A DNA stretch of 59,596 nt from an uncultured Cryomorphaceae bacterium. Its GTDB lineage: Bacteria > Bacteroidota > Bacteroidia > Flavobacteriales > Schleiferiaceae. This document shows positions 12,184-26,329 of the stretch, piece after piece; position 1 is the first letter of the stretch, and every line of letters begins with the position of its first letter. The stretch is taken from NCBI GenBank assembly GCA_913060465.1, contig CAJXTR010000002.1, positions 1 to 59,596 on the forward strand, in the 5' to 3' direction. The position numbers and the translations under genes were made by a program. The notes beneath the pieces are model-generated. The model was not told the origin of the DNA. It was given only the letters and a program-made list of their open reading frames with translations, and searched no databases.

Positions 12184-12630
12184 ATGAGGCCCGAAGAAAC
12201 CTTTGATTTTCGCATTCGCCGTAGTTGGATCTCAATGTCCAAGATGTACAATGACCTGGTGAGCAGCAGTGGAATAACTGTTTCTGTGGGTTTTGCATTA
12301 CTTAATATTGATGTTAAGAAGGGCACCCCTTCTACGGCCTTGGGGCCAATGATGGGTATGGAGAGCACTTCATTAAGTCGCATCTTAAAAAACATGGAAC
12401 GCGACGGATTGATCTTTAAAGAAGCGCATCCCCAAGACAAACGAAGTGTGCTTCTAAAACTCACCTCGTTGGGCATTGAAAAGCGTAACGCAAGTAAAGA
12501 CGCCGTACTCACGTTCAACGAAACGGTATTGGCTACGCTTGGTGAAGCACGCACGGAAGAATTCTTCAACGCGATGAACGCTATTGACCGAATTATTGAG
12601 GAAGTTCGAATGAATGCTGTAACGCCGTAG
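12184..12630 (+). CDS. MarR-family transcriptional regulator
   Basis: 148-residue winged-helix regulator. Seen: MYNDLVSSSGITVSVGFALLNID in the dimerisation helices, the recognition-helix region GPMMGMESTSLSRILKNMERDGLI and the wing HPQDKRSVLLKLT. The sequence resembles the Bacteroidota MarR group that usually heads fatty-acid beta-oxidation operons (fadB/fadA-like genes), with the same PSTALGP.MGME core. Here no fad gene follows; downstream is a 340-base gene-free stretch. An AAGAAAGAG ribosome site precedes ATG 12184, and a perfect palindrome lies at 12130-12147. Targets are probably elsewhere in the genome, or the operon has been broken up. Family call certain, ligand unknown. Confidence 0.88.
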   Translation: MRPEETFDFRIRRSWISMSKMYNDLVSSSGITVSVGFALLNIDVKKGTPSTALGPMMGMESTSLSRILKNMERDGLIFKEAHPQDKRSVLLKLTSLGIEKRNASKDAVLTFNETVLATLGEARTEEFFNAMNAIDRIIEEVRMNAVTP

Positions 12631-12778
12631 ACCTTATGAATTTTCTATACATACTTACCAAGTCAGCAAATAAGCGTTTATACGCCCTTTTAATTGCGCT
12701 ATACACTCTATTGCGCCTTTGCACACACCGTAAACCCTTTTTATTGTATCAAAATTTCACCATAAATACCCCGAGCAT

Positions 12779-12890
12779 TTAGCGTTCCAAATCGCTAATT
12801 AAATCGCGCCTTAGCGCAAATACACAGGCTTTCCCAAGAGCCGTCACAGAGTGAACGAAAAATCGCTACCCGTTGGTGGCGATTTTTTTT
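12779..12890 (+). ncRNA. Candidate structured RNA: five successive hairpins ending in a terminator
   Basis: The gene-free stretch 12631-12976 contains, in series: TTAGCG/CGCTAA (12779-12798), GCGC-CTTA-GCGC (12806-12817), GGCTTT-CCCA-AGAGCC with one G-T pair (12827-12842), TCAC-AGA-GTGA (12844-12854), and a strong terminator hairpin with a T run (12858-12890). No coding frame explains them. Dense local pairing ending in an intrinsic terminator is what a small RNA or a long 3' UTR of marR would look like. No known RNA family is recognised. The part before it (12631-12778) holds only a weak GCGT-TTAT-ACGC hairpin and AT-rich sequence. Confidence 0.4.
12858..12890 (+). terminator. Intrinsic terminator
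   Basis: AAAAATCGCTACC and GGTGGCGATTTTT pair around a CGTT loop with one internal T-G position, and run into eight T. It ends the transcript from marR, or from a separate RNA in the gap, and isolates the locus that follows. Confidence 0.88.
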
Positions 12891-12923
12891 ATATTGAAAT
12901 GTAAACTATCGTAGAACTATATG

Positions 12924-12954
12924 TTGCTAAATAGATATTGTTTTGCTTAAATAG
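12924..12954 (+). repeat. Two direct repeats upstream of the HTH gene, possible regulator sites
   Basis: TTGCTAAATAG (12924-12934) and TTGCTTAAATAG (12943-12954) lie 19 bases apart, about two helical turns, within an AT-rich promoter region 23-53 bases before ATG 12977. Such phasing suits cooperative binding by one protein on one DNA face. Extra ACTAT half-sites occur at 12904 and 12916. Confidence 0.4.
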
Positions 12955-12976
12955 TATATACACACCTAAACACGCC

Positions 12977-13405
12977 ATGCCACAAGAACAATTCTGCCCA
13001 AAATGCCAAAGCGAAGACCATGTCAAGAGCGGCATTATCAAAAACCGCCAGCGCTTTAAATGCAAGGCCTGCGGCTACTATTTCACGGTTCAAAAATTAG
13101 GAAAACGCATTGATGACTACTACGTGACCAAAGCGCTCCAACTCTATGTCGAAGGCGTAAGCTATCGCGAGATTGAGCGCCTACTAGGCATCTCTCATGT
13201 CAGTGTCATGAATTGGGTGAAGACCTATGGAATAAAGCGTCCACAGCACAATGATAACTACCACCCTACCTATAAAATCCTAACCTTTGAAGAGCTGGCC
13301 AAATTCATGGCTAGTAAAGAAAACGTCAAGGGTTCCGGAATGATTATTACCGAAATTGGCGACAAATTCATGCTTATTAAATGGGAACGCTTTAAGCGAT
13401 CGTAA
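12977..13405 (+). CDS. Zinc-ribbon/HTH protein of IS1-transposase (InsA-like) origin, no catalytic domain
   Basis: 142 residues from ATG 12977 (an in-frame upstream ATG at 12938 would add thirteen poorly conserved residues). An N-terminal zinc ribbon has CPKC (Cys7, Cys10) and CKAC (Cys29, Cys32); a helix-turn-helix follows at about 55-82 (YVEGVSYREIERLLGISHVS). This matches the DNA-binding half of IS1/IS1595-type transposases. There is no DDE catalytic domain, no InsB-like frame, no terminal inverted repeats and no target duplication, so it is not an active element. The C terminus (100-142) is an unrecognised extension with MIITEIGDKFMLIKWERF. At the head of the acetate locus, it is best read as a domesticated DNA-binding regulator; its target is unknown. 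Confidence 0.75.
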   Translation: MPQEQFCPKCQSEDHVKSGIIKNRQRFKCKACGYYFTVQKLGKRIDDYYVTKALQLYVEGVSYREIERLLGISHVSVMNWVKTYGIKRPQHNDNYHPTYKILTFEELAKFMASKENVKGSGMIITEIGDKFMLIKWERFKRS

Positions 13406-13423
13406 GATTTGGATAAAAGGGTA

Positions 13424-13451
13424 ACTATACCTCTTTACTCAAATGTATAGT
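13424..13451. promoter_or_regulatory. Inverted repeat ACTATAC-N14-GTATAGT upstream of the porin
   Basis: Two seven-base arms (13424-13430 and 13445-13451) are perfectly complementary with a 14-base spacer, in the gap between the HTH gene and the porin. The half-site resembles the ACTAT boxes upstream of the HTH gene. It may bind the HTH protein or another dimeric regulator. Confidence 0.45.
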
Positions 13452-13468
13452 CCATTTTCAAAAGAAAA

Positions 13469-13534
13469 GGGTTTTTGGAACATTTGAATTGGGAGACCGT
13501 AGCAAGTAGCCCAACTCGTTTAATCCAAAAACCC
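13469..13534 (+). promoter_or_regulatory. Structured 5' leader of the porin mRNA
   Basis: GGGTTTTTGGA (13469-13479) is the exact complement of TCCAAAAACCC (13524-13534): eleven-base arms around 44 bases, with a nested TTGGG/CCCAA pair inside. The closing arm ends six bases before ATG 13541, so the stem would cover the ribosome-entry region. This could gate translation or stabilise the transcript. No known riboswitch class is recognised. Confidence 0.5.
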
Positions 13535-13540
13535 AATTTT

Positions 13541-14773
13541 ATGAGGACAAAATTACTAGCCGTCTTTGTTCTAACAATCGCCACCCTGGGATTGTTTGCA
13601 CAAAAAAATGCGGCGCCTTATGGTTCAGGCTTAAAGGTGAGTCTGAACGAAGATGGTTCCAAGTATTATCGCTTAATTACTTGGCACCAAGCATGGCTCC
13701 AATCGGACCTCGGCGCAGATCAGTTTAGTGTAACACCATCATTACGTCGTTCGAGAATGTTGATGTTCGCTCAAATTAATGACCGATTCTTGATTCTTAC
13801 CCATTTCGGTTTGAACAGTTTGAACCCTGCCAAAATGGACCCAACAGGTCAAAGCTCAGGTGCTCAGTTGTTTATGCACGACGCATGGGCCGAATGGAAA
13901 GTGAATGATCACGTCTATGTAGGTTCAGGTTTGCATTATTGGAACGGCATTAGCCGTTTGAACAACCAGAGTACCCTGAATTTCTTGCCTTTAGACAATG
14001 CACGTCATGCATGGGCTACGATCGGTACTTCAGATCAATTCGCAAGACACATGGGCGTTTATGCCAAAGGAAAGTTTGGTAAGCTCGATTATCGTGTCGC
14101 ATGGAATTCACCCATCGTTAATTCAATCGATGCAAATGCAGGTTTAGCGGCAAGCACAGACAAAGCCATATACACTGGACGTCGTGATTTGGGTGCATCT
14201 GCATCTAATATTTTCGCAGGTTACGTGAACTACCAACTTTGGGACCAAGAAAGCAATAAGCTTCCCTTCTTCGTTGGATCCTACTTCGGTGCAAAGGACA
14301 TCCTTAACATAGGAGCAGGATTTTTCAACCATGCGAATGGTTCCGTTACCCTAGATGCATCTGGCAACCTTGTTGGTCATAATGTCAACATTTTCGCAGT
14401 AGATGTTTTCATGGAAAAAGGATTGAGCGATAACGGAAGTGCGGTAACGGCCTATGCACAATACCAGATGAATGACTTTGGAGACAACTACCAACTTGGC
14501 GGTGGCTCCGAAGAGGTCTTTACTGGTAATATATTCTACACCCAAGCCGGCTATGTATTGCCCGACTTCAACGACAACTATCGTCTACAACCGTACTTCA
14601 CCTATACTAGCAAAGACATCCAAGCAGCGGGTATGGCCAGTACAGTAGGTGTGGGTGCAAACTTTTTAATGAATGGTCACAATAGCAAGTTCACCGTTGA
14701 ACTGAAAAGCACCGGTAAAACGGACGGCACCAGCGGTACCATGTTGACCACTCAAGCAGTAATCTTCTTATAA
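13541..14773 (+). CDS. Outer-membrane porin of the acetate locus
   Basis: 410 residues from ATG 13541, which begins a clean signal peptide (MRTKLLAVFVLTIATLGLFAQ); the frame extends upstream to 13475 but the extra residues do not look like a leader. The mature protein has amphipathic strands throughout and ends in a hydrophobic strand (LTTQAVIFL), as in 16-18-stranded porins. Seen: LRRSRMLMFAQINDRFLILTHFGLNSLNP and MHDAWAEWKVNDHVYVGSGLHYW, reminiscent of Bacteroidota phosphate-selective-type porins. Located eleven bases before the DUF4212/symporter genes, it probably admits short-chain carboxylates across the outer membrane. The substrate is inferred from context only. Confidence 0.75.
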   Translation: MRTKLLAVFVLTIATLGLFAQKNAAPYGSGLKVSLNEDGSKYYRLITWHQAWLQSDLGADQFSVTPSLRRSRMLMFAQINDRFLILTHFGLNSLNPAKMDPTGQSSGAQLFMHDAWAEWKVNDHVYVGSGLHYWNGISRLNNQSTLNFLPLDNARHAWATIGTSDQFARHMGVYAKGKFGKLDYRVAWNSPIVNSIDANAGLAASTDKAIYTGRRDLGASASNIFAGYVNYQLWDQESNKLPFFVGSYFGAKDILNIGAGFFNHANGSVTLDASGNLVGHNVNIFAVDVFMEKGLSDNGSAVTAYAQYQMNDFGDNYQLGGGSEEVFTGNIFYTQAGYVLPDFNDNYRLQPYFTYTSKDIQAAGMASTVGVGANFLMNGHNSKFTVELKSTGKTDGTSGTMLTTQAVIFL

Positions 14774-14784
14774 TTTCTATCGTC

Positions 14785-15039
14785 ATGAGTAAAAAAAACA
14801 TGAAAGAGTACTGGTCAAAGAACATCGCAAAGGTGTTGACCCTACTCGGCATTTGGTTCCTAGTTTCCTATGTGTTTGGGATTCTATTAGTCGACACCCT
14901 TAATACCATCCCATTGGGCGGTTTCAAACTCGGCTTTTGGTTCGCACAACAGGGTTCAATCTACACTTTTGTTGCACTGATTTGGATTTACGTACGCCAG
15001 ATGAACAAGCTGGACGAAGAATACGGAGTTAACGAATAA
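14785..15039 (+). CDS. DUF4212 small subunit of a sodium:solute symporter
   Basis: 84 residues with two membrane helices (about 17-37 and 55-75). Seen: EYWSKNIAKVLTLLGIWFLVSY and the conserved GFWFAQQGSIYTFVALIWIY, which define the DUF4212 family, proteins found beside SLC5-type acetate symporters. Fourteen bases separate it from the symporter gene. It is likely a small subunit or assembly partner of the transporter; the family's mechanism is not established. Confidence 0.88.
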   Translation: MSKKNMKEYWSKNIAKVLTLLGIWFLVSYVFGILLVDTLNTIPLGGFKLGFWFAQQGSIYTFVALIWIYVRQMNKLDEEYGVNE

Positions 15040-15053
15040 TAAAACATATTATC

Positions 15054-16748
15054 ATGGATATTCAAACTTGGACCTACATACTGGTCGGTATCACATTCGC
15101 CCTTTACATCGGGATCGCTATTTGGTCGCGTGCGGGCTCTACGAAAGATTTTTATGTTGCAGGCGGTGGTGTTAGTCCCCTAGCCAATGGTCTTGCAACA
15201 GCAGCCGACTGGATGTCGGCCGCCTCATTCATCTCTATGGCAGGACTCATCTCCTTCATGGGATACGACGGATCTGTGTTCTTGATGGGCTGGACCGGTG
15301 GCTATGTACTGCTAGCATTATTGTTAGCTCCCTATTTACGTAAGTTCGGAAAGTTCACGGTGCCTGATTTTATTGGCGACCGATACTATTCAAACACTGC
15401 GCGTACAGTAGCTGTTATTTGTGCACTGTTCGTTTCATTCACATATGTTGCAGGCCAAATGCGTGGTGTTGGTGTTGTATTTTCTCGCTTCCTTGAAGTA
15501 GATATCAATACCGGCGTATATATAGGTATGGCAATTGTATTCTTCTACGCTGTTCTCGGCGGGATGAAAGGAATTACCTACACTCAGGTAGCACAATACT
15601 GTGTATTGATCTTCGCCTTCATGGTGCCAGCAATTTTCATTTCTATTCAAATGACTGGAAATCCAATTCCACAATTAGGTTTTGGTGGCAACTACGATGG
15701 CATGCCAATATTGGATAAGTTGGACGGACTTCACAGGGAACTAGGCTTTGCTGAATACACTGATGGCAGCAAAAGCATGATTGATGTGTTCTTCATCACT
15801 GCTGCGTTGATGGTAGGTACAGCAGGTCTTCCACATGTTATTGTACGATTCTTCACTACTCCTAAAGTAAGTGGTGCCCGTAAATCTGCAGGATACGCCT
15901 TACTTTTCATTGCAATCCTGTACACTACTGCTCCTGCCGTTGCCGTGTTTGCACGCGTAAACTTGATCGAAACCATTTCAAATCAACCCCGCACGGAATT
16001 GCCTGCATGGGTAGATAACTGGGAAGAAACAGGACTTCTTTCTTGGGAAGATAAAAACGGTGATGGACTCGTACAGTATGTCGCAGACGCTGAAGCAAAC
16101 GAATTCAATGTAGACCGTGACATCATGGTACTCGCAAACCCTGAAATAGCCGGCCTTCCTAACTGGGTAGTTGCGCTCGTAGGTGCAGGTGGTCTTGCTG
16201 CAGCTCTTTCAACAGCGGCTGGACTCCTATTGGTAATTTCTACCTCAGTATCTCACGATTTATTGAAGAAGCAAATTGCACCAAACATTTCTGATAAACA
16301 GGAATTAATGTGGGCGCGTATTGCAGCAGTGATTGCAGTTGTTGTTGCTGGTTACTTTGGTATTCACCCTCCTGGGTTCGTTGCCTCAGTAGTAGCTCTC
16401 TCTTTTGGTTTGGCAGCAGCTTCTTTCTTCCCAGCGATCCTATTGGGGATTTTTACCAAAAAGATGAACAAGGAAGGTGCTATCTCTGGTATGATCAGTG
16501 GTCTATTAATTACCATGTATTATATCGCTCGTTTCAAATTACACTGGATCGGTGATGAAGCCACATCAACTTCGGCAGATTGGTGGTGGGGCATTTCACC
16601 AGAAGGTTTTGGAACTGTAGGTATGATGGTCAACTTCGCAGTAGCTTTCATCGTAAATAGATTTACGCCTGAAACGCCTCAAGAGGTACAAGATCTTGTA
16701 GAAACCATCCGTATTCCATCAGGAGCGGGTGACGCACACGCACATTAA
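15054..16748 (+). CDS. Cation:acetate symporter-like SLC5 transporter
   Basis: 564 residues with about thirteen membrane segments; related to ActP and the VC_2705-type symporters that pair with DUF4212. Seen: GGGVSPLANGLATAADWMSAASFISMAG near the start, the SLC5 core GDRYYSNTARTVAVICA, GTAGLPHVIVRFFT, and SLALSFGLAAASFFPAIL-like segments toward the end. It lacks a classic cleavable signal. A hydrophilic loop (about residues 300-360) between membrane helices carries DKNGDGLVQY at 333-342, an EF-hand-like calcium loop. Context (porin, acyl-CoA synthetases, SLC5 kinase) supports acetate or propionate uptake. A powerful terminator follows. Confidence 0.88.
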   Translation: MDIQTWTYILVGITFALYIGIAIWSRAGSTKDFYVAGGGVSPLANGLATAADWMSAASFISMAGLISFMGYDGSVFLMGWTGGYVLLALLLAPYLRKFGKFTVPDFIGDRYYSNTARTVAVICALFVSFTYVAGQMRGVGVVFSRFLEVDINTGVYIGMAIVFFYAVLGGMKGITYTQVAQYCVLIFAFMVPAIFISIQMTGNPIPQLGFGGNYDGMPILDKLDGLHRELGFAEYTDGSKSMIDVFFITAALMVGTAGLPHVIVRFFTTPKVSGARKSAGYALLFIAILYTTAPAVAVFARVNLIETISNQPRTELPAWVDNWEETGLLSWEDKNGDGLVQYVADAEANEFNVDRDIMVLANPEIAGLPNWVVALVGAGGLAAALSTAAGLLLVISTSVSHDLLKKQIAPNISDKQELMWARIAAVIAVVVAGYFGIHPPGFVASVVALSFGLAAASFFPAILLGIFTKKMNKEGAISGMISGLLITMYYIARFKLHWIGDEATSTSADWWWGISPEGFGTVGMMVNFAVAFIVNRFTPETPQEVQDLVETIRIPSGAGDAHAH

Positions 16749-16830: not shown

Positions 16831-17028
16831 ATGAACAAAAGGACAAATATTAGTACGGTATTCACGCTACTTATTGCAATAGCAGTCAGTATGCCAATTC
16901 TAGGGCTCTACAACATTAAGGGCCTTATAAATGGCATCCCTACCGTATTAATTGTACTTCTTTTGATTTGGCTCGGCGTTATTGGCTACGGGATATTTTC
17001 TGATCAGAAAAGTCAAGAAGAAGAATGA
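16831..17028 (+). CDS. Small two-helix membrane protein coupled to the SLC5 kinase (CbrX-like position)
   Basis: 65 residues, two predicted membrane helices (about 9-27 and 36-54) and an acidic tail (SQEEE). No family is recognised from sequence. Its stop overlaps the kinase start (ATGA), implying translational coupling. In Pseudomonas a small gene, cbrX, occupies the same position ahead of cbrA; I infer positional and perhaps functional analogy. It also mirrors the DUF4212-symporter pairing just upstream: a small two-helix protein encoded directly before an SLC5-type protein. It could be a subunit of the sensor. Confidence 0.7.
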   Translation: MNKRTNISTVFTLLIAIAVSMPILGLYNIKGLINGIPTVLIVLLLIWLGVIGYGIFSDQKSQEEE

Positions 17029-19640
17029 GTGCTGTTTCCATCATAGCGATCACCGGTTTATACCTGTTTGTGCTGTTTTTAGTGGCGCAATGGGGTAAAG
17101 GTGTCGGTCGAACTTTCATTGAAAAACACAGTGGCCATTTTTACGCACTTGGCCTAGCCGTATATGCCACAGCATGGACCTTTTACGGCAGCATAGGCCG
17201 CGCGGCTACCCACGGCCTTGATTTCCTAGCAATCTATCTAGGTCCTGTTGCGATAATGCCAGTTTGGTGGATTTTGATGAAGAAAATGGTACGCATTTCA
17301 AAGGCGCAACACCTGAATTCATTATCAGATTTCATCACCGCTCGCTATGGAAAGAGCTGGTCCCTCGGAGTGGTTGTCACACTATTAGTAGTATTGGCCA
17401 TCACCCCCTATCTAGCATTACAGATTAAAGCCATTAGTTCGAGCGCTAACGTCCTTCTTTCAGATTTAAGCGTTCCACAGATTGACTTGGACCTTCTCAG
17501 CACACTATTGCTGCTCACCTTCACTATGATTTATGGGTTGCGCTTCGCTTTTGGAGAAGGAGAACGTTACGGACTCATCGCTGCCATCGGTTTTGAAAGT
17601 TTGGTCAAGCTCGTCGGTGCGTTTGTCGCTGGTTGGGTATTGGTGGGCGGATACCTTGGCGGGGTTAAAAAAATATACACAGATGCCTTTGAGGCGGGCC
17701 TTGATCAGTTAATGGTCATCCAAGATACTCGCAGTTGGTGGTGGCTTATGCTTATTAGCGCCTTTTCATTCATATTACTTCCCCGTCAATACCAGATGGG
17801 TGTAGTATCAAATAAAAATGAGAAGGATATCAAACGTGCGCTTTGGCTGATGCCGCTGTATTTACTCCTTATGAACTGGTGGGTTGTTCCCATTGCATTA
17901 AGTGGGAACATGCTATTAGACAACAGCATCAGTGCTGATTACCACTTTCTCCGCTTAGCACTACAATCTGGGAATCCCATACTTCCAGCAATGATCTTTA
18001 TTGGTGGCTTAGCAGCCTGTACATCAATGATCATCGTTAGCTCCTCCGCTCTTGGTGCCATGGTAAGTTCAAACATCTTGATACCGCTCGCTCTTAAAAA
18101 AAATGGCAGTCCCCGGTTCCAACTAAACCCGGTCATTACCAAAAGAATTGCCTTAATAATCATCTTCTCCCTGGCCTATTTATACTACACAAAGTTTGTG
18201 CAAAGCGAAGCGCTAGTGAGTATTGGAATTGTATCATTTATTGGAATTGCACAGCTCGCACCTGGTTTTTTTGCTGCATTATTTTGGCGTCGAGCAACGG
18301 CGCAAGGCGTGCTCGCCGGGCTTCTGGGAGGAATGGCTATATGGTTGATTACACTTGCACTTCCGCAATGGTCGACCATAAGCAGCTCAGGCATTCATAT
18401 CATCAACCTCTTTGAAGGCTGGTCGCCTGTGGCCACCATTGTCTTCCTTTCTCTAGCTATAAATTCGATACTCATGATCGTTGTTAGCGCTTTCAGTACC
18501 CAAAATGCTGTAGAGAAAAATCAGGCTGAAATATTCTACAACATTCTCCAAATCTCTCGAAACCGTTACGACCAAAGTCCCGTGACTACTGGGAAAATCA
18601 CCTTTGACCGGCTGGAGAAGATGTTGAACAAGTTTGTTCCGAATAGCATGCTTAGCGAAACCCTTTACAAACGCTATACGATCGACCGTATTCAGGCCGA
18701 TCCATATAAGGAGGTGCCTAGTGCGTTGGTAAGCTACGCAGAACGACTTCTGACTCAAGTCATAGGTACTGTAGCAGCGCGAATCGTACTTAGTCGAGAG
18801 ATCGAAAGTGACACCATCAATATCTTAGATGTCCAGGACATCATTGCCGAAACCAAGCAGACTCAACGGCTAAATATCGAGTTGAAGGAAAAAACCGAAA
18901 AGCTCGCGAACACCACCGCTCAACTTGTGGCGGCAAATGACCAACTCAAGGCGATGAGTCAACTCAAGGATGATTTCTTGTATACGGTCACACATGAATT
19001 GCGCAGCCCTTTGACTGCCATCCGAGCACAAATTGAGATCATTCGTGACGACCACGATATGCCTGAGGAGGTTAGGGACCAATTCCTCGATGCCACCATA
19101 TCAGAGAGTGAGCGCCTCACCCATTTGATTTCAAACATTCTAGACATTGAAAAATTTGAAAGTGGGAATCAACAGCTTCAATTCGGCGCTATTGACCTTT
19201 TCCAAGTTGCCCAACGAGTAGTAGATAACAATGAAGCATTGGCAAAAAAGAAAGGATTGAATATATCCCTAGAGGGCCCTAGTATGGCGATCGTCCATGC
19301 AGATGAAGATCGAATTCAGCAGGTCTTTGTCAACCTCGTGTCGAATGCCATCAAATATGCAGCGACTGAGATCCGTATTCGTGTATTGGACGGTTCAGAA
19401 ACCTCATTTTGTGTCCAAGTTGTTGATGACGGCCCTGGCGTAAAGGAATCGGACATCCCGCATTTATTTGAGAAATTCTACCAAAGCCAAGATCAAACCG
19501 TTAAAAAGCGCCTAGGAACGGGCCTAGGATTGGCCATTAGCTACAACATTATCAAAGCCCACAAAGGCATTCTTCATTTAGAGCACAACTCCAAAACCAC
19601 TGGAACAGTGTTCTCCTTCCAACTTCCAAAAACCCATTGA
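17025..19640 (+). CDS. SLC5-domain sensor histidine kinase (CbrA/CrbS type)
   Basis: 871 residues. The N-terminal half (about 1-500) is a sodium:solute-symporter-like domain with about thirteen membrane segments, including YATAWTFYGSIGRAATHG and the long ILLPRQYQMGVVSNKNEKD loop. Then come a linker (STAC-like, about 510-590), a coiled coil (about 600-645), and a kinase core with His657 in THELRSPLTAIRAQ, N-box VFVNLVSNAIKYA, and G-boxes DDGPGV and GTGLGL. All catalytic motifs are intact; there is no obvious PAS domain. CrbS-type kinases in gamma-proteobacteria control acs and acetate use, so acetate sensing is the likely role. Start coupled to the small upstream gene; stop one base before the response regulator. 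Confidence 0.92.
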   Translation: MSAVSIIAITGLYLFVLFLVAQWGKGVGRTFIEKHSGHFYALGLAVYATAWTFYGSIGRAATHGLDFLAIYLGPVAIMPVWWILMKKMVRISKAQHLNSLSDFITARYGKSWSLGVVVTLLVVLAITPYLALQIKAISSSANVLLSDLSVPQIDLDLLSTLLLLTFTMIYGLRFAFGEGERYGLIAAIGFESLVKLVGAFVAGWVLVGGYLGGVKKIYTDAFEAGLDQLMVIQDTRSWWWLMLISAFSFILLPRQYQMGVVSNKNEKDIKRALWLMPLYLLLMNWWVVPIALSGNMLLDNSISADYHFLRLALQSGNPILPAMIFIGGLAACTSMIIVSSSALGAMVSSNILIPLALKKNGSPRFQLNPVITKRIALIIIFSLAYLYYTKFVQSEALVSIGIVSFIGIAQLAPGFFAALFWRRATAQGVLAGLLGGMAIWLITLALPQWSTISSSGIHIINLFEGWSPVATIVFLSLAINSILMIVVSAFSTQNAVEKNQAEIFYNILQISRNRYDQSPVTTGKITFDRLEKMLNKFVPNSMLSETLYKRYTIDRIQADPYKEVPSALVSYAERLLTQVIGTVAARIVLSREIESDTINILDVQDIIAETKQTQRLNIELKEKTEKLANTTAQLVAANDQLKAMSQLKDDFLYTVTHELRSPLTAIRAQIEIIRDDHDMPEEVRDQFLDATISESERLTHLISNILDIEKFESGNQQLQFGAIDLFQVAQRVVDNNEALAKKKGLNISLEGPSMAIVHADEDRIQQVFVNLVSNAIKYAATEIRIRVLDGSETSFCVQVVDDGPGVKESDIPHLFEKFYQSQDQTVKKRLGTGLGLAISYNIIKAHKGILHLEHNSKTTGTVFSFQLPKTH

Positions 19641-19641
19641 T

Positions 19642-20007
19642 ATGAAACGCATTTTAATTGTCGACGACGAACCCAACATCGTACTATCCCTAGAATACCT
19701 CATGCGTTCTAAAGGCCTAGATGTCCGCATTGGACGAAATGGCAAGGAAGCACTAGAGCAACTCGAACAGGAGCGCTTCGATCTGATCCTGCTGGACATT
19801 ACTATGCCCGAAGTAGATGGGTATGAAATCTGCAAAATCGTCAAGAGCCATCCGGTATGGAAGGACACCCATGTGGTCTTCTTGAGTGCAAAAAGCAAGC
19901 AAAGTGATATTGAGAAAGGCATGAGTTTGGGCGCGTCCGATTATGTCGTAAAGCCCTTTTCTACGCGCGCTTTGAGCCAAAAAGTACTGGAACTGATCAA
20001 CCACTAA
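19642..20007 (+). CDS. Single-domain response regulator (receiver only)
   Basis: 121 residues, a complete receiver domain and nothing else. Seen: acidic pair Asp8-Asp9, phospho-acceptor Asp52 in LLDITMPEVDG, Ser82 in LSAKS, and Lys104 in VKPFS, so phosphorylation should work. There is no DNA-binding or enzymatic output domain, unlike CbrB or CrbR. It starts one base after the kinase stop, so it is the cognate partner. Output must pass through protein contact, perhaps with another regulator encoded nearby. Domain call certain, partner unknown. Confidence 0.93.
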   Translation: MKRILIVDDEPNIVLSLEYLMRSKGLDVRIGRNGKEALEQLEQERFDLILLDITMPEVDGYEICKIVKSHPVWKDTHVVFLSAKSKQSDIEKGMSLGASDYVVKPFSTRALSQKVLELINH

Positions 20008-20022
20008 TCAACCTAGACCGCC

Positions 20023-21912
20023 ATGAATACCTCCTACCGAAACGCCTTTAACAAAAGCATTGAAAACCCTGCCAATTTCTGGCTGGAGCAGGCGTATAAA
20101 CTGAATTGGACCAAACCTCCAACAGAAGCCTTACGCTTTAATGACAATGGTTCATCGATGTGGTTTCCAGACGGCAAACTCAACACGTCGGCCCTTTGCT
20201 TGGACTTTCACATTGATCAAGGCCGAGGCCATGAATGTGCACTTATTTACGACAGTCCAGTAACCAATACGAAAGCATCCTATACCTATATCGCGCTTTT
20301 GGAAGAGGTCAATGCTTTGGCGAAAGGCATGCAAGAAATGGGGCTCAAAAAAGGTGATACAGCTATTATTTATCTGCCCATGATTCCACAGGCAGCCATC
20401 GCAATGCTAGCCTGTGCAAGACTTGGCGTCGTCCACAGCGTAGTTTTTGGTGGCTTCGCTCCTCGAGAATTGGCCATTCGTATGGATGATGCAAAACCTA
20501 AAATCATCATCACCGCAGATGCCGGCATAGAAGTCAATAAGATTATTGACTACAAGCCCATGGTCGACGAGGGTATAAAATTGGCCGAGCACAAGCCCGA
20601 AAAAGTCATCGTTTACAACCGAAAAATATCGAATAACTGCCCAATGGGCAGTACGGATATGTGGTGGCAGGATTTTCATAAACCACATCATTGGGTAAAC
20701 CCTACGCCCGTGCTTTCAAACGACCCATTATACATCCTATACACCTCAGGAACTACGGGACTTCCAAAAGGAATTGTTAGAGAAAACGGTGGTCACGCTG
20801 TTGCCTTGCGGTACAGCATGGAGCACATTTATGGCATGAAACCAGGAGAGGTATTCTGGGCGGCTTCGGACGTAGGTTGGGTGGTTGGGCACAGCTACAT
20901 TATTTATGCACCGATGCTACTAGGCTGTACAACCGTATTATTCGAGGGCAAACCCATTAAAACGCCGGACGCTTCAACATTTTGGAGAATTATAGAAGAG
21001 CACAAGGTTAACACTATGTTCACCGCTCCAACCGCAATTCGCGCGATTCGAAAAGAAGATCCGGACGGCAACTTTATAAAACAACACGATTTATCACACT
21101 TCCGGGCGCAATTCTTAGCCGGCGAGCGCTGTGATGCAGATACTCTAAAATGGACGCAGGAACAACTTGGCGTTCCTGTTATAGACCACTGGTGGCAAAC
21201 CGAGAGTGGCTGGCCAATGATAGGCCAATGCCTTGGGTATGGGACCGATCCTGTCAAACCCGGATCTGCAAGCTTTCCTATTCCGGGCTATAATGTGCAG
21301 ATCATAAAAGAAGACGGCACAGTGGCCGGGGCCAATGAAGAAGGGCTCGTTTGTGTAAAACTGCCTTTACCTCCAGGCGCTTTGGCTGATCTATGGAATG
21401 ATACAGCTCGCTTTACAAGAGGATATCTCGAACCCGTTCCAGGATATTATTTCTCTGGAGATGGCGGTTATCAAGATGAAGAAGGCTATCTGTTTATCAC
21501 TGGACGTGTTGATGATGTTATAAATGTTGCTGGACACCGATTAAGTACCGCCGAAATGGAGGAAGTCATCGCTGCGCACCCCATGGTAGCTGAATGTGCG
21601 TGCTTTGGTATTCACGACGATTTGAAAGGTCAAGTTCCCATGGCCATGATTGTAACCACCCATGATGCAACGGAAAGCGAAGCATTAGAACAAGAACTAA
21701 AAACACAGATTCGCAGTGCCATAGGCGCTATAGCGAGTCTAAAAACCATCGTACGCGTTGAACGATTACCCAAAACAAGAAGCGGTAAGATTCTAAGGAA
21801 AACTTTGCGCGCTATCGTCGATGGCACTCCTTACACCATGCCTTCAACTATTGACGACCCCACCATCTTAAAAGAAATAGAACATCTATTCGAAACTCAT
21901 ATTAACCAGTAA
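20023..21912 (+). CDS. prpE: Propionyl-CoA synthetase-type acyl-CoA ligase (PrpE/ACSS3-like)
   Basis: 629 residues; forms acyl-CoA from a short carboxylate, ATP and CoA through an acyl-adenylate. Seen: P-loop YTSGTTGLPKGIVRENGGHAVAL (given here only as its positions, about 240-262), where the GIVRENGGH form is typical of propionyl-CoA synthetases rather than AcsA; the TAPTAIRAIR motif; DHWWQTESGWPM in the acyl pocket; and PKTRSGKIL with catalytic Lys589. Preference for propionate is inferred from the RENGGHA signature. It lies between the two-component genes and acsA, likely in one transcript. Confidence 0.85.
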   Translation: MNTSYRNAFNKSIENPANFWLEQAYKLNWTKPPTEALRFNDNGSSMWFPDGKLNTSALCLDFHIDQGRGHECALIYDSPVTNTKASYTYIALLEEVNALAKGMQEMGLKKGDTAIIYLPMIPQAAIAMLACARLGVVHSVVFGGFAPRELAIRMDDAKPKIIITADAGIEVNKIIDYKPMVDEGIKLAEHKPEKVIVYNRKISNNCPMGSTDMWWQDFHKPHHWVNPTPVLSNDPLYILYTSGTTGLPKGIVRENGGHAVALRYSMEHIYGMKPGEVFWAASDVGWVVGHSYIIYAPMLLGCTTVLFEGKPIKTPDASTFWRIIEEHKVNTMFTAPTAIRAIRKEDPDGNFIKQHDLSHFRAQFLAGERCDADTLKWTQEQLGVPVIDHWWQTESGWPMIGQCLGYGTDPVKPGSASFPIPGYNVQIIKEDGTVAGANEEGLVCVKLPLPPGALADLWNDTARFTRGYLEPVPGYYFSGDGGYQDEEGYLFITGRVDDVINVAGHRLSTAEMEEVIAAHPMVAECACFGIHDDLKGQVPMAMIVTTHDATESEALEQELKTQIRSAIGAIASLKTIVRVERLPKTRSGKILRKTLRAIVDGTPYTMPSTIDDPTILKEIEHLFETHINQ

Positions 21913-21925
21913 AAAAGAACGTATC

Positions 21926-23833
21926 ATGAATTTCTACGACATCGATTCATTTGAAAAATACCAAGCCGCATACAGTGCTTCTGTTGAAAATCCATCCGAA
22001 TTCTGGAACGGAATTGCACAGAACTACCAGTGGCAAAAACCGTGGAGTAACACACTCGATTGGAATTTCTCTGAGCCCAATATTAAATGGTTTGAAGATG
22101 GAAAATTGAACATCACGGAGAACTGCCTTGACCGTCATTTACCTGAACATGGCGATGATATCGCACTTATTTGGGAACCTAATGACCCTAATGAAAAGGA
22201 AGTTCGAATGACCTTCAAGGAGCTTCATGCCGAAGTTTGCAGGTTCGCTAACGTTTTGAAATCACGTGGCATTGGCAAAGGCGATCGCGTCGCTGTATAT
22301 ATGCCCATGGTACCTGAACTTACCATAGGCGTACTGGCTTGTGCTAGAATTGGAGCCGTGCATAGCGTAGTCTTTGCAGGTTTCTCTGCGAGTGCATTGG
22401 CAGATCGAATCAACGATTCCTCTTGTAAAGCAGTTCTGACTTCGGACGGTATGTACAGAGGTGCCAAAGCCCTTCCCGTTAAAACAACCGTTGACGATGC
22501 GCTTGAAAATTGTACAAGTGTTGAAACAGTCATTGTGGTAAAACGAGACGGCAGAGATGTTACCATGGTAGAAGGGCGTGATTTATGGTATGATGAGGCC
22601 GCGGCTGCTGTAGGGACCGATTGCCCCGCTGAGACTATGGATGCGGAGGATATGCTATTTATTCTCTACACTTCAGGATCTACCGGTAAACCGAAAGGGG
22701 TCGTACACACCTGTGGAGGCTACATGGTCTACGCTGGTTATAGCTTTAAAAATGTATTCCAATACAAGCGTGGCGATGTTTATTGGTGTACCGCGGATGT
22801 TGGCTGGATTACAGGACATAGCTACATCATTTACGGACCATTATTAAACGGGGCTACAACTATTATGTTTGAAGGCGTGCCTACATGGCCTGATGCTGGC
22901 CGATTCTGGGACGTTTGTGACAAATACCAAGTGAACCAATTCTACACCGCCCCTACCGCAATTCGCGCCTTGATGGCACTGGGAGACTCTTTTGTTGATC
23001 GGGCAAACCTCAGCAGTTTAAAGGTTATCGGATCAGTAGGCGAACCTATTAATGCTGAGGCTTGGAATTGGTACCATGAAAAAGTAGGGAAAGGACATTG
23101 TCCTATTGTAGATACATGGTGGCAGACGGAAACCGGCGGGATAATGATCTCGGGGCTAGGTGGACTCAGTCCACAACGTGCGACTTTTGCAGGCCTTCCT
23201 CTTCCTGGAATTCAACCAGAACTTTTAGATAGTGATGGAAATGAGATTCAAGGCGATGGTGTCGAAGGCTACCTCGTAGTCAAACACCCATGGCCTTCAA
23301 TGCTCCGTACTACATACGGCGATCACGAGCGTTGTAGAACCACTTATTTCAGTCATTACGATGGTTACTACTTTACTGGCGATGGTGCTCGTCGTGAGGA
23401 TGGAATGTTCCGAATCATTGGACGAGTAGATGATGTAATCAATGTCAGCGGTCACAGGTTTGGAACCGCCGAGATTGAAAACGCAATCAACTCAAGTTCT
23501 GTGGTTACGGAAAGTGCAGTAGTTGGCTACCCCCATGACATTAAGGGTCAAGGCATCTATGCCTATGTTATTTTGGAAGGTGGAGATCACGATGCTGCAG
23601 AAGTACGAAAAGCCATCATCAGTACCATAGTGGATGAGATCGGACCTATTGCTAAGCCCGATGTCATTCAAATAGTTCCTGGACTTCCAAAAACAAGGTC
23701 AGGTAAAATCATGCGTAGAATCTTAAGAAAAGTAGCAGAAGGTGATACTAGTAATCTTGGCGACACTTCGACATTACTTGATCCAAGTGTTGTTGAGACG
23801 ATAAAAGAAGATGCACTTAAATTAAGAGGTTAA
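21926..23833 (+). CDS. acsA: Acetyl-CoA synthetase
   Basis: 635 residues, the family length. Activates acetate to acetyl-CoA. Seen: FADVLK-like N region, LYTSGSTGKPKGVVHTCGG, the TADVGWITGHSYIIYGPL block, DTWWQTETGG in the acetate pocket, and PKTRSGKIMRRILRK with catalytic Lys594 (the residue that is acetylated in regulated homologues). Only 13 bases separate it from the preceding PrpE-type gene. The two proteins share an N-terminal pattern (ENP..FW, W, K.FEDGKLN), indicating an old duplication. Context supports regulated acetate assimilation. Confidence 0.95.
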   Translation: MNFYDIDSFEKYQAAYSASVENPSEFWNGIAQNYQWQKPWSNTLDWNFSEPNIKWFEDGKLNITENCLDRHLPEHGDDIALIWEPNDPNEKEVRMTFKELHAEVCRFANVLKSRGIGKGDRVAVYMPMVPELTIGVLACARIGAVHSVVFAGFSASALADRINDSSCKAVLTSDGMYRGAKALPVKTTVDDALENCTSVETVIVVKRDGRDVTMVEGRDLWYDEAAAAVGTDCPAETMDAEDMLFILYTSGSTGKPKGVVHTCGGYMVYAGYSFKNVFQYKRGDVYWCTADVGWITGHSYIIYGPLLNGATTIMFEGVPTWPDAGRFWDVCDKYQVNQFYTAPTAIRALMALGDSFVDRANLSSLKVIGSVGEPINAEAWNWYHEKVGKGHCPIVDTWWQTETGGIMISGLGGLSPQRATFAGLPLPGIQPELLDSDGNEIQGDGVEGYLVVKHPWPSMLRTTYGDHERCRTTYFSHYDGYYFTGDGARREDGMFRIIGRVDDVINVSGHRFGTAEIENAINSSSVVTESAVVGYPHDIKGQGIYAYVILEGGDHDAAEVRKAIISTIVDEIGPIAKPDVIQIVPGLPKTRSGKIMRRILRKVAEGDTSNLGDTSTLLDPSVVETIKEDALKLRG

Positions 23834-23840
23834 GCATCAA

Positions 23841-25709
23841 ATGGCTCCCGAACTTTTTCTCCACAAGCGGGTAGCTGAGGAATTAAAGCACCATCCCCCA
23901 TTCTCGGAATTGGAGGACGGTGCTTTATTGATTCTCGCTGAAAACACTGAGGTGATTTACGTGAATCGATCAGAAGCACTCTTCAACTTCAGCGATGCAT
24001 TAGCGCCTTACATTTATGTGGTGGCCGAAGGCACCATAGAATTATGGCGGGACGACCTGCTTATTGACCAGGTGGACCGTGGCGAAATGCTGGGACTTCG
24101 AACCATTTTTGAATCCGGCACGTACAAGGCAACGGCAAAACCTAAAGCCGGGCATGATGCACTGGTCTACGCCTTTCCTAAATCATTAGCGAAATCCGTC
24201 TTGGTAGACAACCCGTTAACGGAGCATTTTTTCCAGCTGGATTGGAAAGGAGATCGCGACGGCTTCATCCCCTCCGGCACTTCCCTTCGACGGTTAATGA
24301 AGCGAAAAGGCCAAGCCTTCGAACTCCCCATATCGGACGAACAACGCCTCTTAGAGGTACGTGAAGCAATAACCATTGCCGCTGATCAGTCTATTCAGGA
24401 GGCGGCACGTAGAATGAATGAGGCGAAAACCGACGCTATCGTGGTTACCGACCCGCACAACATTCCCTTAGGTATCATTACCGATAGTGATTTACGCAAG
24501 CACGTTGCCCTTCCTCATTTCCACCAAGGAATGCTATCAGACGAGGTCATGACGCACCCTCTGCACACCTTTTCCCAGCAACTAAGCTACACGGATGCCC
24601 TGGTCGCCATGGTGGAGCACCGGTTCCACCATCTAGTAATTACGGAAAATGGTGGCGTAAACGAACCGCTGGTGGGAATAATCAGTGACCACGACATCTT
24701 GCTTGAACAAGCGCTGAACCCCACCATCATTATAAAGAAGATGGACAAAGCCCCATCGCTTGCGGCGTTGGAGAAAACACTCGGAAAGGTGGAGCAACTT
24801 CGTGCAAACTATGTGGAAGCCAATACCAACAGTGCCATTGTTCAAAAAGTAATGACACAATGTTATTCCGGCCTTTACCGCAACGCTATTCGACTGGTTC
24901 AAAAAGAAATAGGTCCTCCCCCCTGCGCTTACACATGGATTGCCTTGGGTTCGTTGGGCCGCGGGGAACAACTCATCATTACCGATCAAGATCATGCCTT
25001 AGTGTACGAACAAGATGCTTGTGCGCCCTACATGGCAGATATGGCGGAAAAGGTGAGCGGCATTATGACCGCTTTGGGGTTTGAGGAAGATCACTATGGT
25101 GTGAGCGCTAGTAACCCGCAGTGGCGAGGCACACCGACACAATGGAAAAAAAGATTCGTGCAGTGGTGCACAGAAGGTGAAGGGGATGCGCTTTTGGCCC
25201 TGGGCATCATTTTGGATGCAACCGTCATAGATGGAGACCTTAATCTGTCTCTGCCGGTATTCAATGCGCTGTATCAACAAATACAATTGGACGAGGTTTT
25301 GATGAAAACCATGGCAGCGGATGCGCTTAGAAACCCAAGTCCATTGAATTTCTTCAAGCAGTTGAAGCTAGAATCGACGGGGGTATTTGATCTAAAACTT
25401 CGAGGCATTTTGCCTTTTATCGATGCCTCAAAAGTATTGGCGCTTAAGTTTGGAAAAGGTCACATTGCGGGAACCTCAGCGCGCCTGGAAGCCATCAAAA
25501 ACGAGGGAAACAAAGACCTCATTACCAGTGCCATTCATGCCTATGAAATCACACTATACTTGCGAGTAAAGTTTAGTAAAGCTAATAATAATGACGGCCG
25601 TTACATCAATCCCAACGCTTTGGACTCTTTGGACAGGCAGCTTTTGCGCAACGTACTTAAAACTTTGGAAGCCTTGCAGGATCATGTGAAACTTCAATTT
25701 TCACTGTGA
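23841..25709 (+). CDS. cNMP-binding-like / CBS pair / DUF294 nucleotidyltransferase protein
   Basis: 622 residues. In order: a cyclic-nucleotide-binding-like domain (about 1-130) whose cassette (RGEMLGLRTIF...TYKATAKP) lacks the usual GE and Arg positions, so cAMP binding is doubtful; two CBS motifs (about 165-300) that typically bind adenylates; a GlnD-like nucleotidyltransferase domain with ALGSLGRGEQLIITDQDHAL, whose Gly-Ser and Asp-x-Asp residues are intact (about 365-395); and a helical C-terminal domain. The DUF294 family often sits with SLC5 acetate transporters in diverse bacteria; a regulatory role is likely but the target is not known. Its stop overlaps the exonuclease start (TGATG). 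Confidence 0.88.
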   Translation: MAPELFLHKRVAEELKHHPPFSELEDGALLILAENTEVIYVNRSEALFNFSDALAPYIYVVAEGTIELWRDDLLIDQVDRGEMLGLRTIFESGTYKATAKPKAGHDALVYAFPKSLAKSVLVDNPLTEHFFQLDWKGDRDGFIPSGTSLRRLMKRKGQAFELPISDEQRLLEVREAITIAADQSIQEAARRMNEAKTDAIVVTDPHNIPLGIITDSDLRKHVALPHFHQGMLSDEVMTHPLHTFSQQLSYTDALVAMVEHRFHHLVITENGGVNEPLVGIISDHDILLEQALNPTIIIKKMDKAPSLAALEKTLGKVEQLRANYVEANTNSAIVQKVMTQCYSGLYRNAIRLVQKEIGPPPCAYTWIALGSLGRGEQLIITDQDHALVYEQDACAPYMADMAEKVSGIMTALGFEEDHYGVSASNPQWRGTPTQWKKRFVQWCTEGEGDALLALGIILDATVIDGDLNLSLPVFNALYQQIQLDEVLMKTMAADALRNPSPLNFFKQLKLESTGVFDLKLRGILPFIDASKVLALKFGKGHIAGTSARLEAIKNEGNKDLITSAIHAYEITLYLRVKFSKANNNDGRYINPNALDSLDRQLLRNVLKTLEALQDHVKLQFSL

Positions 25710-26329
25710 TGTTTTACCGAAGAAATCGAACGGCTAAAGCCTATGACTTACACCGCGCAAACTACACGGTATTGGATACGGAAACGACGGGGTTTGAACC
25801 CGGTAAGGACCGCATTTTGAGCATAGGGCTTGTCAAGATGCAGAATGGAAAGATTCTGCTGAAAAGTGCGCTTGAACTTTTTATACAATATGAGGGAAAC
25901 TTGGGACATAGTCCAACCATTCACGGCATCACCATGAATGCCTTGGAAGGCGGAATGCCAGCAGAAGAGGCCTTACGGCATACCCTTGATTTCATCGGTA
26001 CCGATACAGTCGTAGCTCATTATGCCTCCTTTGACAGACGAATGCTTGAAGAGCTGGCCCGAATGTATAATGTGCCTTGGCCGGAGTTACGATGGCTGGA
26101 CACCATGGATGTAGAAGTAGGGTTGAATCCTTCGGCGCATCGACAAGCGCATTTATTAAAATTGGACCAACTACTAGCGGACTATCAAATCCCCGCCTTG
26201 GACAGGCATACGGCTTTAGGCGACGCTTATGCGACTGCTAGAGTGCTCCAAAAACAATTGGCACTGTGTAGAACTCAAGGCATTCAGTATTCCTCATCTT
26301 TGCAGCCACCACGAACTGGTTTGTTATAA
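25709..26329 (+). CDS. DEDDh-family 3'-5' exonuclease (DnaQ-like)
   Basis: 206 residues. Seen: DTETTGFEPGKDRIL (first Asp and Glu), HYASFDRRML (second Asp), and DRHTALGDAYATARV (His and last Asp), giving a complete DEDDh set. The fold matches the DNA polymerase III epsilon group, but there is no polymerase-binding tail evident and no replication neighbour. It begins within the DUF294 stop codon (ATG 25709; a GTG one codon earlier is possible), so the two are translated together. The DUF294-exonuclease pair recurs in acetate-locus contexts; the substrate here could be nucleic acid or an oligonucleotide. Confidence 0.85.
   Translation: MFYRRNRTAKAYDLHRANYTVLDTETTGFEPGKDRILSIGLVKMQNGKILLKSALELFIQYEGNLGHSPTIHGITMNALEGGMPAEEALRHTLDFIGTDTVVAHYASFDRRMLEELARMYNVPWPELRWLDTMDVEVGLNPSAHRQAHLLKLDQLLADYQIPALDRHTALGDAYATARVLQKQLALCRTQGIQYSSSLQPPRTGLL

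Follow-up and report, generated by a model that had tools for sequence, protein, structure and literature searches.

An IS1-type zinc-ribbon/HTH protein as a candidate regulator of an acetate/propionate operon in Bacteroidota

What is the DNA-binding half of a transposase doing in front of an operon for the uptake and activation of acids? The question is raised by a 59,596-nt stretch of DNA (the whole of which is referred to below as the window) from contig CAJXTR010000002.1 in the metagenome-assembled genome (MAG) of an uncultured Cryomorphaceae bacterium (GCA_913060465.1; 1.74 Mb, 84% complete). An open reading frame at 12977-13405 (+ strand; ATG at 12977, TAA at 13405) encodes a protein of 142 aa, here called the solo protein, with a zinc ribbon and a helix-turn-helix (HTH) of the IS1 type. 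A preliminary description, made from the letters of the sequence without database searches, proposed that such a DNA-binding half had been recruited as a transcription factor. From sequence comparisons we regard it as quite probable that this domesticated IS1-type DNA-binding protein is the dedicated regulator of one operon, acting via two elements, O1 and O2.

An IS1-type protein without a catalytic domain

The zinc ribbon (C7-x2-C10 and C29-x2-C32; 12995-13072, + strand), whose four Cys residues are found in 126 of 126 distinct orthologues, is matched above the cut-off by the NCBIfam models NF050000 (IS1_IS1595_Zn; 38.9 bits, cut-off 28) and NF048018 (38 bits, cut-off 27); the former, for the N-terminal zinc-binding domain of IS1/IS1595, is a domain model only and is silent on function. 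The HTH (residues 47-84; 13115-13228, + strand) consists of three helices in the AlphaFold2 model (47-58, 63-70 and 74-84). PF06056 (Terminase_5; residues 52-86, 21.1 bits vs. cut-off 20.3) is the only Pfam model of the HTH type to exceed its cut-off, HTH_23 (23.3 vs. 24.6) and the remaining ones staying below theirs. The InsA-like combination of zinc ribbon and HTH has been retained, as the preliminary description had it.

The IS1 transposase model NF033558 aligns residues 7-125 with its positions 1-121 of 199, at 81.6 bits and under the cut-off of 100. The protein is the only IS1-type match and the only copy in its genome (an 84% complete MAG). A DDE catalytic domain was found neither in frame nor in the -1 frame, the only IS1 match of the genome covering positions 1-124 of the 199 in the profile, and the gene that comes next encodes a porin, not an insB' frame. 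No pair of inverted repeats flanks 12977-13405 within 12600-13560, where the only two inverted repeats are hairpins, one terminator-like (12858-12887) and one in the porin leader (13469-13534). The protein falls outside the NF033558 transposases on all four points considered, i.e. score, DDE domain, inverted repeats, and several copies or mobility. The missing catalytic domain, the missing inverted-repeat ends and the single copy in place of many near-identical ones agree with what the preliminary description had expected of a recruited protein. With a view to a possible origin of the upstream element O1 (see below) from an IS1 terminal repeat, 18 longer IS1 ORFs were tested, and around them none of the terminal repeats was convincing.

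Profile-profile comparison of the family with 17 Bacteroidota IS1 transposases confidently identified the relationship (Prob 99.4, E-value 3.4e-21), and the alignment extends into the 'DEL' motif of IS1, which we take to contain the first catalytic Asp. This Asp is not conserved: the equivalent position 105 is Glu in the window protein and Asp in only 12 of 126 distinct orthologues (E 30, S 21, N 13, D 12, K 11, T 9, the rest others), while its neighbours are kept (E106 in 119 of 126, L107 in 126 of 126). Other solo relatives also align across the C-terminal part. However, when the C-terminal part alone is compared with IS1, its score of 13.9 stays under the highest reached by 150 column shuffles (18.4), and the similarity is not significant. 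The idea that this part is a truncated remainder of the beginning of the DDE domain of IS1 is therefore suggestive only.

In the AlphaFold2 model the C-terminal part (13268-13387, + strand) forms a beta-alpha-beta-beta module, with a pLDDT of 85 for the module alone and 77 for the whole protein; from the IS1 alignment it is a possible DDE-domain stump without the D1-equivalent Asp. A fold search with the whole-protein model reported HTH-type matches on top (Z up to 6.2) and no Foldseek match at E 0.001; with the C-terminal model the best match was KCTD5 (Z 4.8), a clear relative not being found, and a sequence search against solved structures gave a best E-value of 0.009. The absence of a fold or structure match proves nothing. 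The module is conserved and probably serves dimerisation or signal input.

Gene neighbourhood, orthologues and selection

A terminator-like hairpin followed by a T run (12858-12887, + strand; 13-nt arms, 92% complementary) divides the upstream unit, on the side of a MarR-type regulator, from the unit of the solo gene. The MarR-type gene (12184-12630) stands beside the solo gene in same-genus relatives too. Downstream, all on the + strand, follow genes for a porin-like outer-membrane protein (13541-14773; no Pfam or NCBIfam match, the label resting on its sequence and on the preliminary description), a DUF4212/TIGR03647 sodium-substrate symporter small subunit (14785-15039; 113 bits, cut-off 26), a TIGR03648 sodium/solute symporter of the VC_2705 family (15054-16748; 878.7 bits, cut-off 320.75), an SSS-domain histidine kinase (17025-19640; SSF, HisKA and HATPase_c), and a receiver-only response regulator of 121 aa (19642-20007), in which Response_reg (residues 4-115) is the sole Pfam match at E-value up to 1e-5 and which has no DNA-binding domain. 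They are followed by an acyl-CoA ligase (20023-21912), nearest to propionate-CoA ligase but under that cut-off, an acetate-CoA ligase (21926-23833; above the cut-off of the TIGR02188 equivalog), a CBS/DUF294 nucleotidyltransferase (23841-25709) and an RNase_T/DnaQ-like exonuclease (25706-26329). The porin-symporter operon immediately downstream, with its porin, DUF4212 and SSS genes on the same strand, is as previously described. The hairpin in the porin leader (13469-13534, + strand) is strong (fold z -4.27) and clade-specific; as a conserved RNA element it was rejected, since z is below -3 in only 4 of 28 loci, three of which are the window (L001) and its nearest relatives L002 and L003.

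Orthologues 53-87% identical to the 142-aa protein occur across the class. A scan of named genomes found at least 572 stretches encoding relatives, of which the best 80 (64-87% identical) were examined; the solo gene is probably present in many more than 80 named records. Among these best 80 of at least 572, 77 have a porin match no more than 900 bp downstream in the same orientation, and DUF4212, SSS and the SSS-kinase follow in 75, 75 and 72, respectively. Of the other three, L090 and L094 have a porin-like ORF downstream by reading, and in L061 the acetate-CoA ligase comes directly next. L061 is also the one locus without the SSS-kinase among the 71 that have at least 4.6 kb of downstream sequence. 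In the phylum sample a porin match follows in 23 of 29 loci and a porin-like ORF, by reading, in four more, the rest being L138, with an MFS-type ORF, and L139, with a short flank lacking a porin and with a divergent acs gene. Orthologues are thus found in the same position, as had been anticipated, and because this place is kept in nearly all of the best 80 named records (of at least 572), the solo gene looks old. An MFS-type transporter replaces DUF4212/SSS behind the regulator in L090, L138 and L200 (by reading), and the orthologue in L267, without the operon neighbours and without O1, is a decayed or re-used case.

The coding sequence is under purifying selection, a further expectation of the preliminary description (median dN/dS 0.09, range 0-0.30; Nei-Gojobori, 36 independent pairs with dS of 0.1-1.5 among loci L001-L110), and its N-terminal and C-terminal parts are similarly constrained (0.083 vs. 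0.099, 35 pairs). The C-terminal extension claimed earlier as the protein's own is present and constrained, but it may be a shortened start of the IS1 DDE domain. All 126 distinct orthologues share, besides the four Cys residues, R64, E65, E67, R68, S73, H74, W80, G121, K130 and W136. These results bear on the simplest alternative, that of a recent truncated IS1 remnant lying before the operon by chance. An IS1-type zinc ribbon and HTH, and a profile match that ends before most of the catalytic domain, are what such a remnant would have; yet it would hardly have class-wide orthologues in the same place and in single copy, a dN/dS of this size with an equally constrained C-terminal part, or a place in a group of 50 solo proteins that splits from 17 IS1 transposases with 100/100 support (see below), and we consider this explanation extremely improbable. 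Position, selection and single copy support instead the recruitment of a transposase DNA-binding half as a candidate transcription factor.

Within the family of the window, 40 of 88 genomes carry the gene (41 tallied, one weak match in G004, E-value 2.7e-4, being excluded), in one copy each. Exceptions are G017, where a stretch is duplicated, and G013, whose two matches lie at the ends of contigs; the copy count disregards further, weak matches in G015 and G017. The solo gene is found in 20 of 21 family genomes with the SSS-kinase (in the exception, G010, 689 bases separate the kinase from the end of the contig) and in 19 of 21 with the symporter (exceptions G033 and G037). In 20 congeners with a trimmed locus the gene is kept directly before the acetate-CoA ligase in 20 of 20 (19 by gene coordinates, G081 by its locus), and symporter and kinase were undetected at an E-value of 1e-60 in these MAGs, which are 58-99% complete. 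Within the class, a phylum sample of 395 genomes has the solo gene in each of the 28 genomes with the SSS-kinase, and the kinase in 28 of the 29 with the solo gene. Outside the class, 13 genomes carry the SSS-kinase without the solo gene, one (G377) has a 4-kb contig that carries the gene along with porin, DUF4212 and SSS, and G267 and G279 have weaker matches interrupted by stop codons.

The prediction that an HTH response regulator would be found where the kinase lacks the solo gene failed, a short receiver being present in 12 of the 13 outside-class loci. Judged by length, the receivers after the kinase outside the class have 122-164 aa (none was detected in L219), and those adjoining the kinase in loci with the solo gene 107-148 aa. 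Of the genes after the outside-class receivers, the one in L213, which was scanned, matched PAS models only, and the others have no evident HTH by reading. An ArsR-like gene precedes the SSS-kinase/receiver pair in the outside-class loci L213, L217 and L218 (by reading), where it is perhaps a local counterpart of the solo regulator.

Given the co-occurrence, coupling of the solo protein to the SSS-kinase and receiver is plausible, though dispensable: in 20 congeners the gene is present and no kinase was detected. A stronger form of coupling is an alternative of its own: the protein could be a zinc-ribbon adaptor for the receiver-only response regulator, with O1 bound by another factor. The 28 of 28 class genomes would fit it, as would the window receiver without a DNA-binding domain and the short receivers on the kinase side elsewhere (107-148 aa). 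On the other hand, the HTH residues R64, E65, E67, R68, S73, H74 and W80 are invariant in all 126 orthologues, the gene is kept in the 20 congeners without detected kinase and symporter, and a similar upstream site accompanies 2 of 13 solo relatives outside the acetate operon (see below). An adaptor therefore seems to us unlikely, and we prefer to regard the solo protein as a DNA-binding regulator.

Conserved elements on both sides of the gene

Just upstream of the start codon, at 12924-12960 (+ strand), the window contains the candidate operator O1, a tandem direct repeat with a 19 bp period (TTGCTAAATAGATAT / TTTGCTTAAATAGTATATA; in short, tandem TGCTAAATnnnTATAT), with a matrix match of 32.8 bits. 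Nothing else in the 59.6 kb window scores more than 16 bits, and the first half of O1 is the sole 0-mismatch match of its pattern there. The motif comes from plain word counts: from 133 upstream and 135 gap regions, de-duplication kept 117 and 100, respectively, and GCTAA-N5-TATAT was present in 91 of the 117 upstream regions (up to 200 bp), and the top word in the 100 gap regions reached 25. In the alignment the tandem direct repeat reads TTGCTAAATTgaTATATttaTGCTAAAttaaTATAt, with the 19 bp period in 29 of 35 sequences. The distance from O1 to the ATG is 30-39 nt in 74 of the 91 aligned cases and varies in other clades. The preliminary description had singled out 12891-12976 for a gel-shift experiment, and this region contains the strongly conserved tandem repeat.

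The O1 matrix was made from 35 of the sequences that it later finds. Run on both strands of 80 loci plus the window (843,503 bp), it reported 80 matches above 16 bits, all before the solo gene (the window O1 at 12924-12960 and 79 sites in relatives), and on shuffled sequence (40 loci, one strand) it gave no match. Of the nine orthologue loci outside the matrix set (L238, L243, L245, L247, L249, L256, L258, L259 and L260), eight have O1 at 24.1-43.3 bits and L256 (G795) has none. In 30 whole genomes picked for having the gene, 27 carry an O1 site at up to one mismatch, and 26 of 28 such sites are directly before the solo gene, with one (G277) just after the gene, before the porin, and one (G229) elsewhere; the reversed-pattern control found one site. 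The 88-genome family has 17 sites at up to one mismatch (16 genomes), 17 of 17 before the solo gene, and at two mismatches, the number that separates the window O1 from the search pattern, three more before the gene (G000, G021 and G036) and ten elsewhere, against five in total for the reversed control. The upstream site is thus nearly unique in the genome.

The site follows the fate of the operon. Of the 20 family genomes that have both the kinase and the gene, 19 have O1 before the gene (the gene match in G077 is partial), against 0 of the 20 trimmed congeners, which still keep the solo gene; O1 has been lost together with the operon. Family genomes without the solo gene have no O1 site at up to one mismatch.

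Could O1 be a conserved promoter or mRNA-start element, and not the operator of the solo protein? The preferred distance of 30-39 nt from the ATG in 74 of 91 aligned cases speaks for it. TAnnTTTG, the -7 promoter consensus, also occurs inside O1, in 19 of 97 sequences; a fixed -7/-33 promoter spacing was not found, so that repression via promoter overlap is no more than a possibility. However, the distance varies in other clades and the site of G277 lies after the gene, in the porin gap; O1 is nearly unique in the genome, unlike a general promoter; and two loci in which a solo relative stands before a C39 exporter have a similar site. A promoter element is, in our judgement, improbable, and O1 is treated here as a putative operator of the solo protein.

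A second element, O2, lies after the stop codon (13424-13451, no strand assigned; ACTATAC-N14-GTATAGT here), the motif being found in the gap of relatives and the window version by reading. In relatives it reads aTTAaCAaAaAaaTATAttaatTTTT, as derived by expectation-maximisation from the 100 nt that follow the stop codon (occupancy 0.74 over 100 regions; log-likelihood 803 vs. 102-106 in three shuffled sets; 60 starts vs. 20 for the shuffles). Of the 100 gap regions, 62 contain TATA-N15..18-TATA, vs. a shuffled mean of 7.5 and maximum of 16, and the support for O2 consists of this count and the expectation-maximisation motif. A stricter pattern, badly chosen, matched 4 of 100 gap regions and, in 80 loci, 5 sites in the gap vs. 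25 elsewhere; because of this failure O2 is less sure than O1. The other region proposed for a gel-shift, 13406-13540, contains O2.

The solo protein has lost its catalytic domain or retains no more than a stump of it. Its targets are probably the tandem TGCTAAATnnnTATAT repeat before its own start codon (12924-12960) and the related element after its own stop codon (13424-13451). Bound there, the protein would control its own gene together with the porin, the Na+/acid symporter, the SSS-kinase/receiver pair and the acetate/propionate-CoA ligases, and the regulator of the acetate/propionate operon is probably autoregulatory. Several observations weigh against this reading: the matrix comes from 35 of its own targets, the window O1 deviates from the search pattern at two positions, the 20 trimmed congeners and L267 have the gene and no recognisable O1, 11 of 13 other solo relatives show no such site (see below), and the kinase occurs without the gene in 13 genomes outside the class. 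In most relatives O1 directly adjoins the start codon, and IS1 itself has an autorepressor in InsA; autorepression would therefore be the likelier sign of regulation. The InsA precedent is described in passages of PMC12428005, according to which InsA binds the inverted repeats of IS1 and represses itself, its promoter partly overlapping the IRL before its own gene.

Related solo proteins and known regulatory systems

InsA of IS1 (E. coli) resembles the solo protein in its zinc finger and HTH, and in a site before its own gene, as with the conserved O1. In contrast to InsA, the solo protein is single copy, without an insertion sequence or a downstream insB' frame; it is held before a metabolic operon and has its own distinct conserved C-terminal module.

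Other IS1-type proteins without a catalytic domain (126-149 aa) were found in the class. In one genome (G522; L171-L180), nine of ten examined solo proteins stand directly before ORFs of at least 1100 aa, most of them cut by the end of the stretch, and eight of these nine large ORFs begin alike by eye and may be RHS-like; of two scanned, one gave a DUF6531 match below cut-off and one no match. The ORF behind the tenth solo protein has 158 aa and matches DUF6531, again below cut-off, and one further solo IS1-type protein of the same genome is located on contig C8. The solo proteins of G522 are perhaps dedicated regulators of secreted giants. In L187, L197 and L265 the solo protein precedes a C39-peptidase ABC exporter (L187 and L265 scanned, L197 by reading), followed in L187 by an HlyD-like gene (Pfam), and in L181 and L264 it precedes an M43/fn3 protein and a MAM protein, respectively.

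O1-like sites, starting 41-42 nt before the ATG, were identified upstream of L187 and L197 (19.4 and 18.1 bits), the remaining 11 of 13 scanned solo relatives scoring below -7 bits upstream, within background; L265 has one O1 half-site by eye. Over 356 upstream regions used as a null, scores above 10 occur only at the sites of the solo gene or of these relatives, the next being 9.8 and 6.9. In an unrooted maximum likelihood tree (first 135 aa), 50 solo proteins are split from 17 IS1 transposases with support of 100/100, which sets the proposed group of 'solo IS1-type regulators' apart from the transposases and is compatible with a single origin; 35 acetate-type rows form one group (100/99).

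CrbR is a response regulator with a DNA-binding output. According to PMC5715377, CrbR activates acs transcription, and the CrbS/CrbR system (MxtR/ErdR; Vibrio, Pseudomonas), in which an SSS-type kinase is tied to acetyl-CoA synthetase expression, recalls the SSS-kinase near acs in the window. Here, too, an SSS-linked kinase lies beside acs; a DNA-binding response regulator was not found at the locus, where, in contrast to CrbS/CrbR, the receiver has no DNA-binding domain and the DNA-binding protein heading the cluster is IS1-derived. CrbS/CrbR is the functional parallel in proteobacteria.

Transcription factors derived from transposases are familiar in eukaryotes, and the bacterial regulator TldR derives from TnpB, an RNA-guided nuclease. 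PMC13418256 presents TldR as a mobile-element protein co-opted for regulation, and passages of PMC8987985 describe co-opted prokaryotic regulators of the Xre/RHH antitoxin or phage type. The cases described there stem from phage repressors or antitoxins or, for TldR, from an RNA-guided nuclease, and none from the DNA-binding half of IS1. Among the matches listed for open-access PMC text there was no bacterial regulator built from an IS1 transposase.

We tentatively propose, as a possibility short of an expectation, that Bacteroidota harbour a family of transcription factors made from the IS1 DNA-binding half, each serving one operon (acetate/propionate uptake, C39-peptidase exporters, RHS-like giants, or MAM- and M43-type secreted proteins). 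A self-regulating site before the regulator gene, like that of InsA at the left end of IS1, would be kept in the acetate and C39 branches at least, and the regulator of the acetate branch would be the missing DNA-binding output of the SSS-kinase/receiver-only pair. For the acetate uptake and activation operon of Bacteroidota, the solo protein provides a candidate regulator with a probable operator, and its history would outline a route from selfish autoregulation to host regulation.
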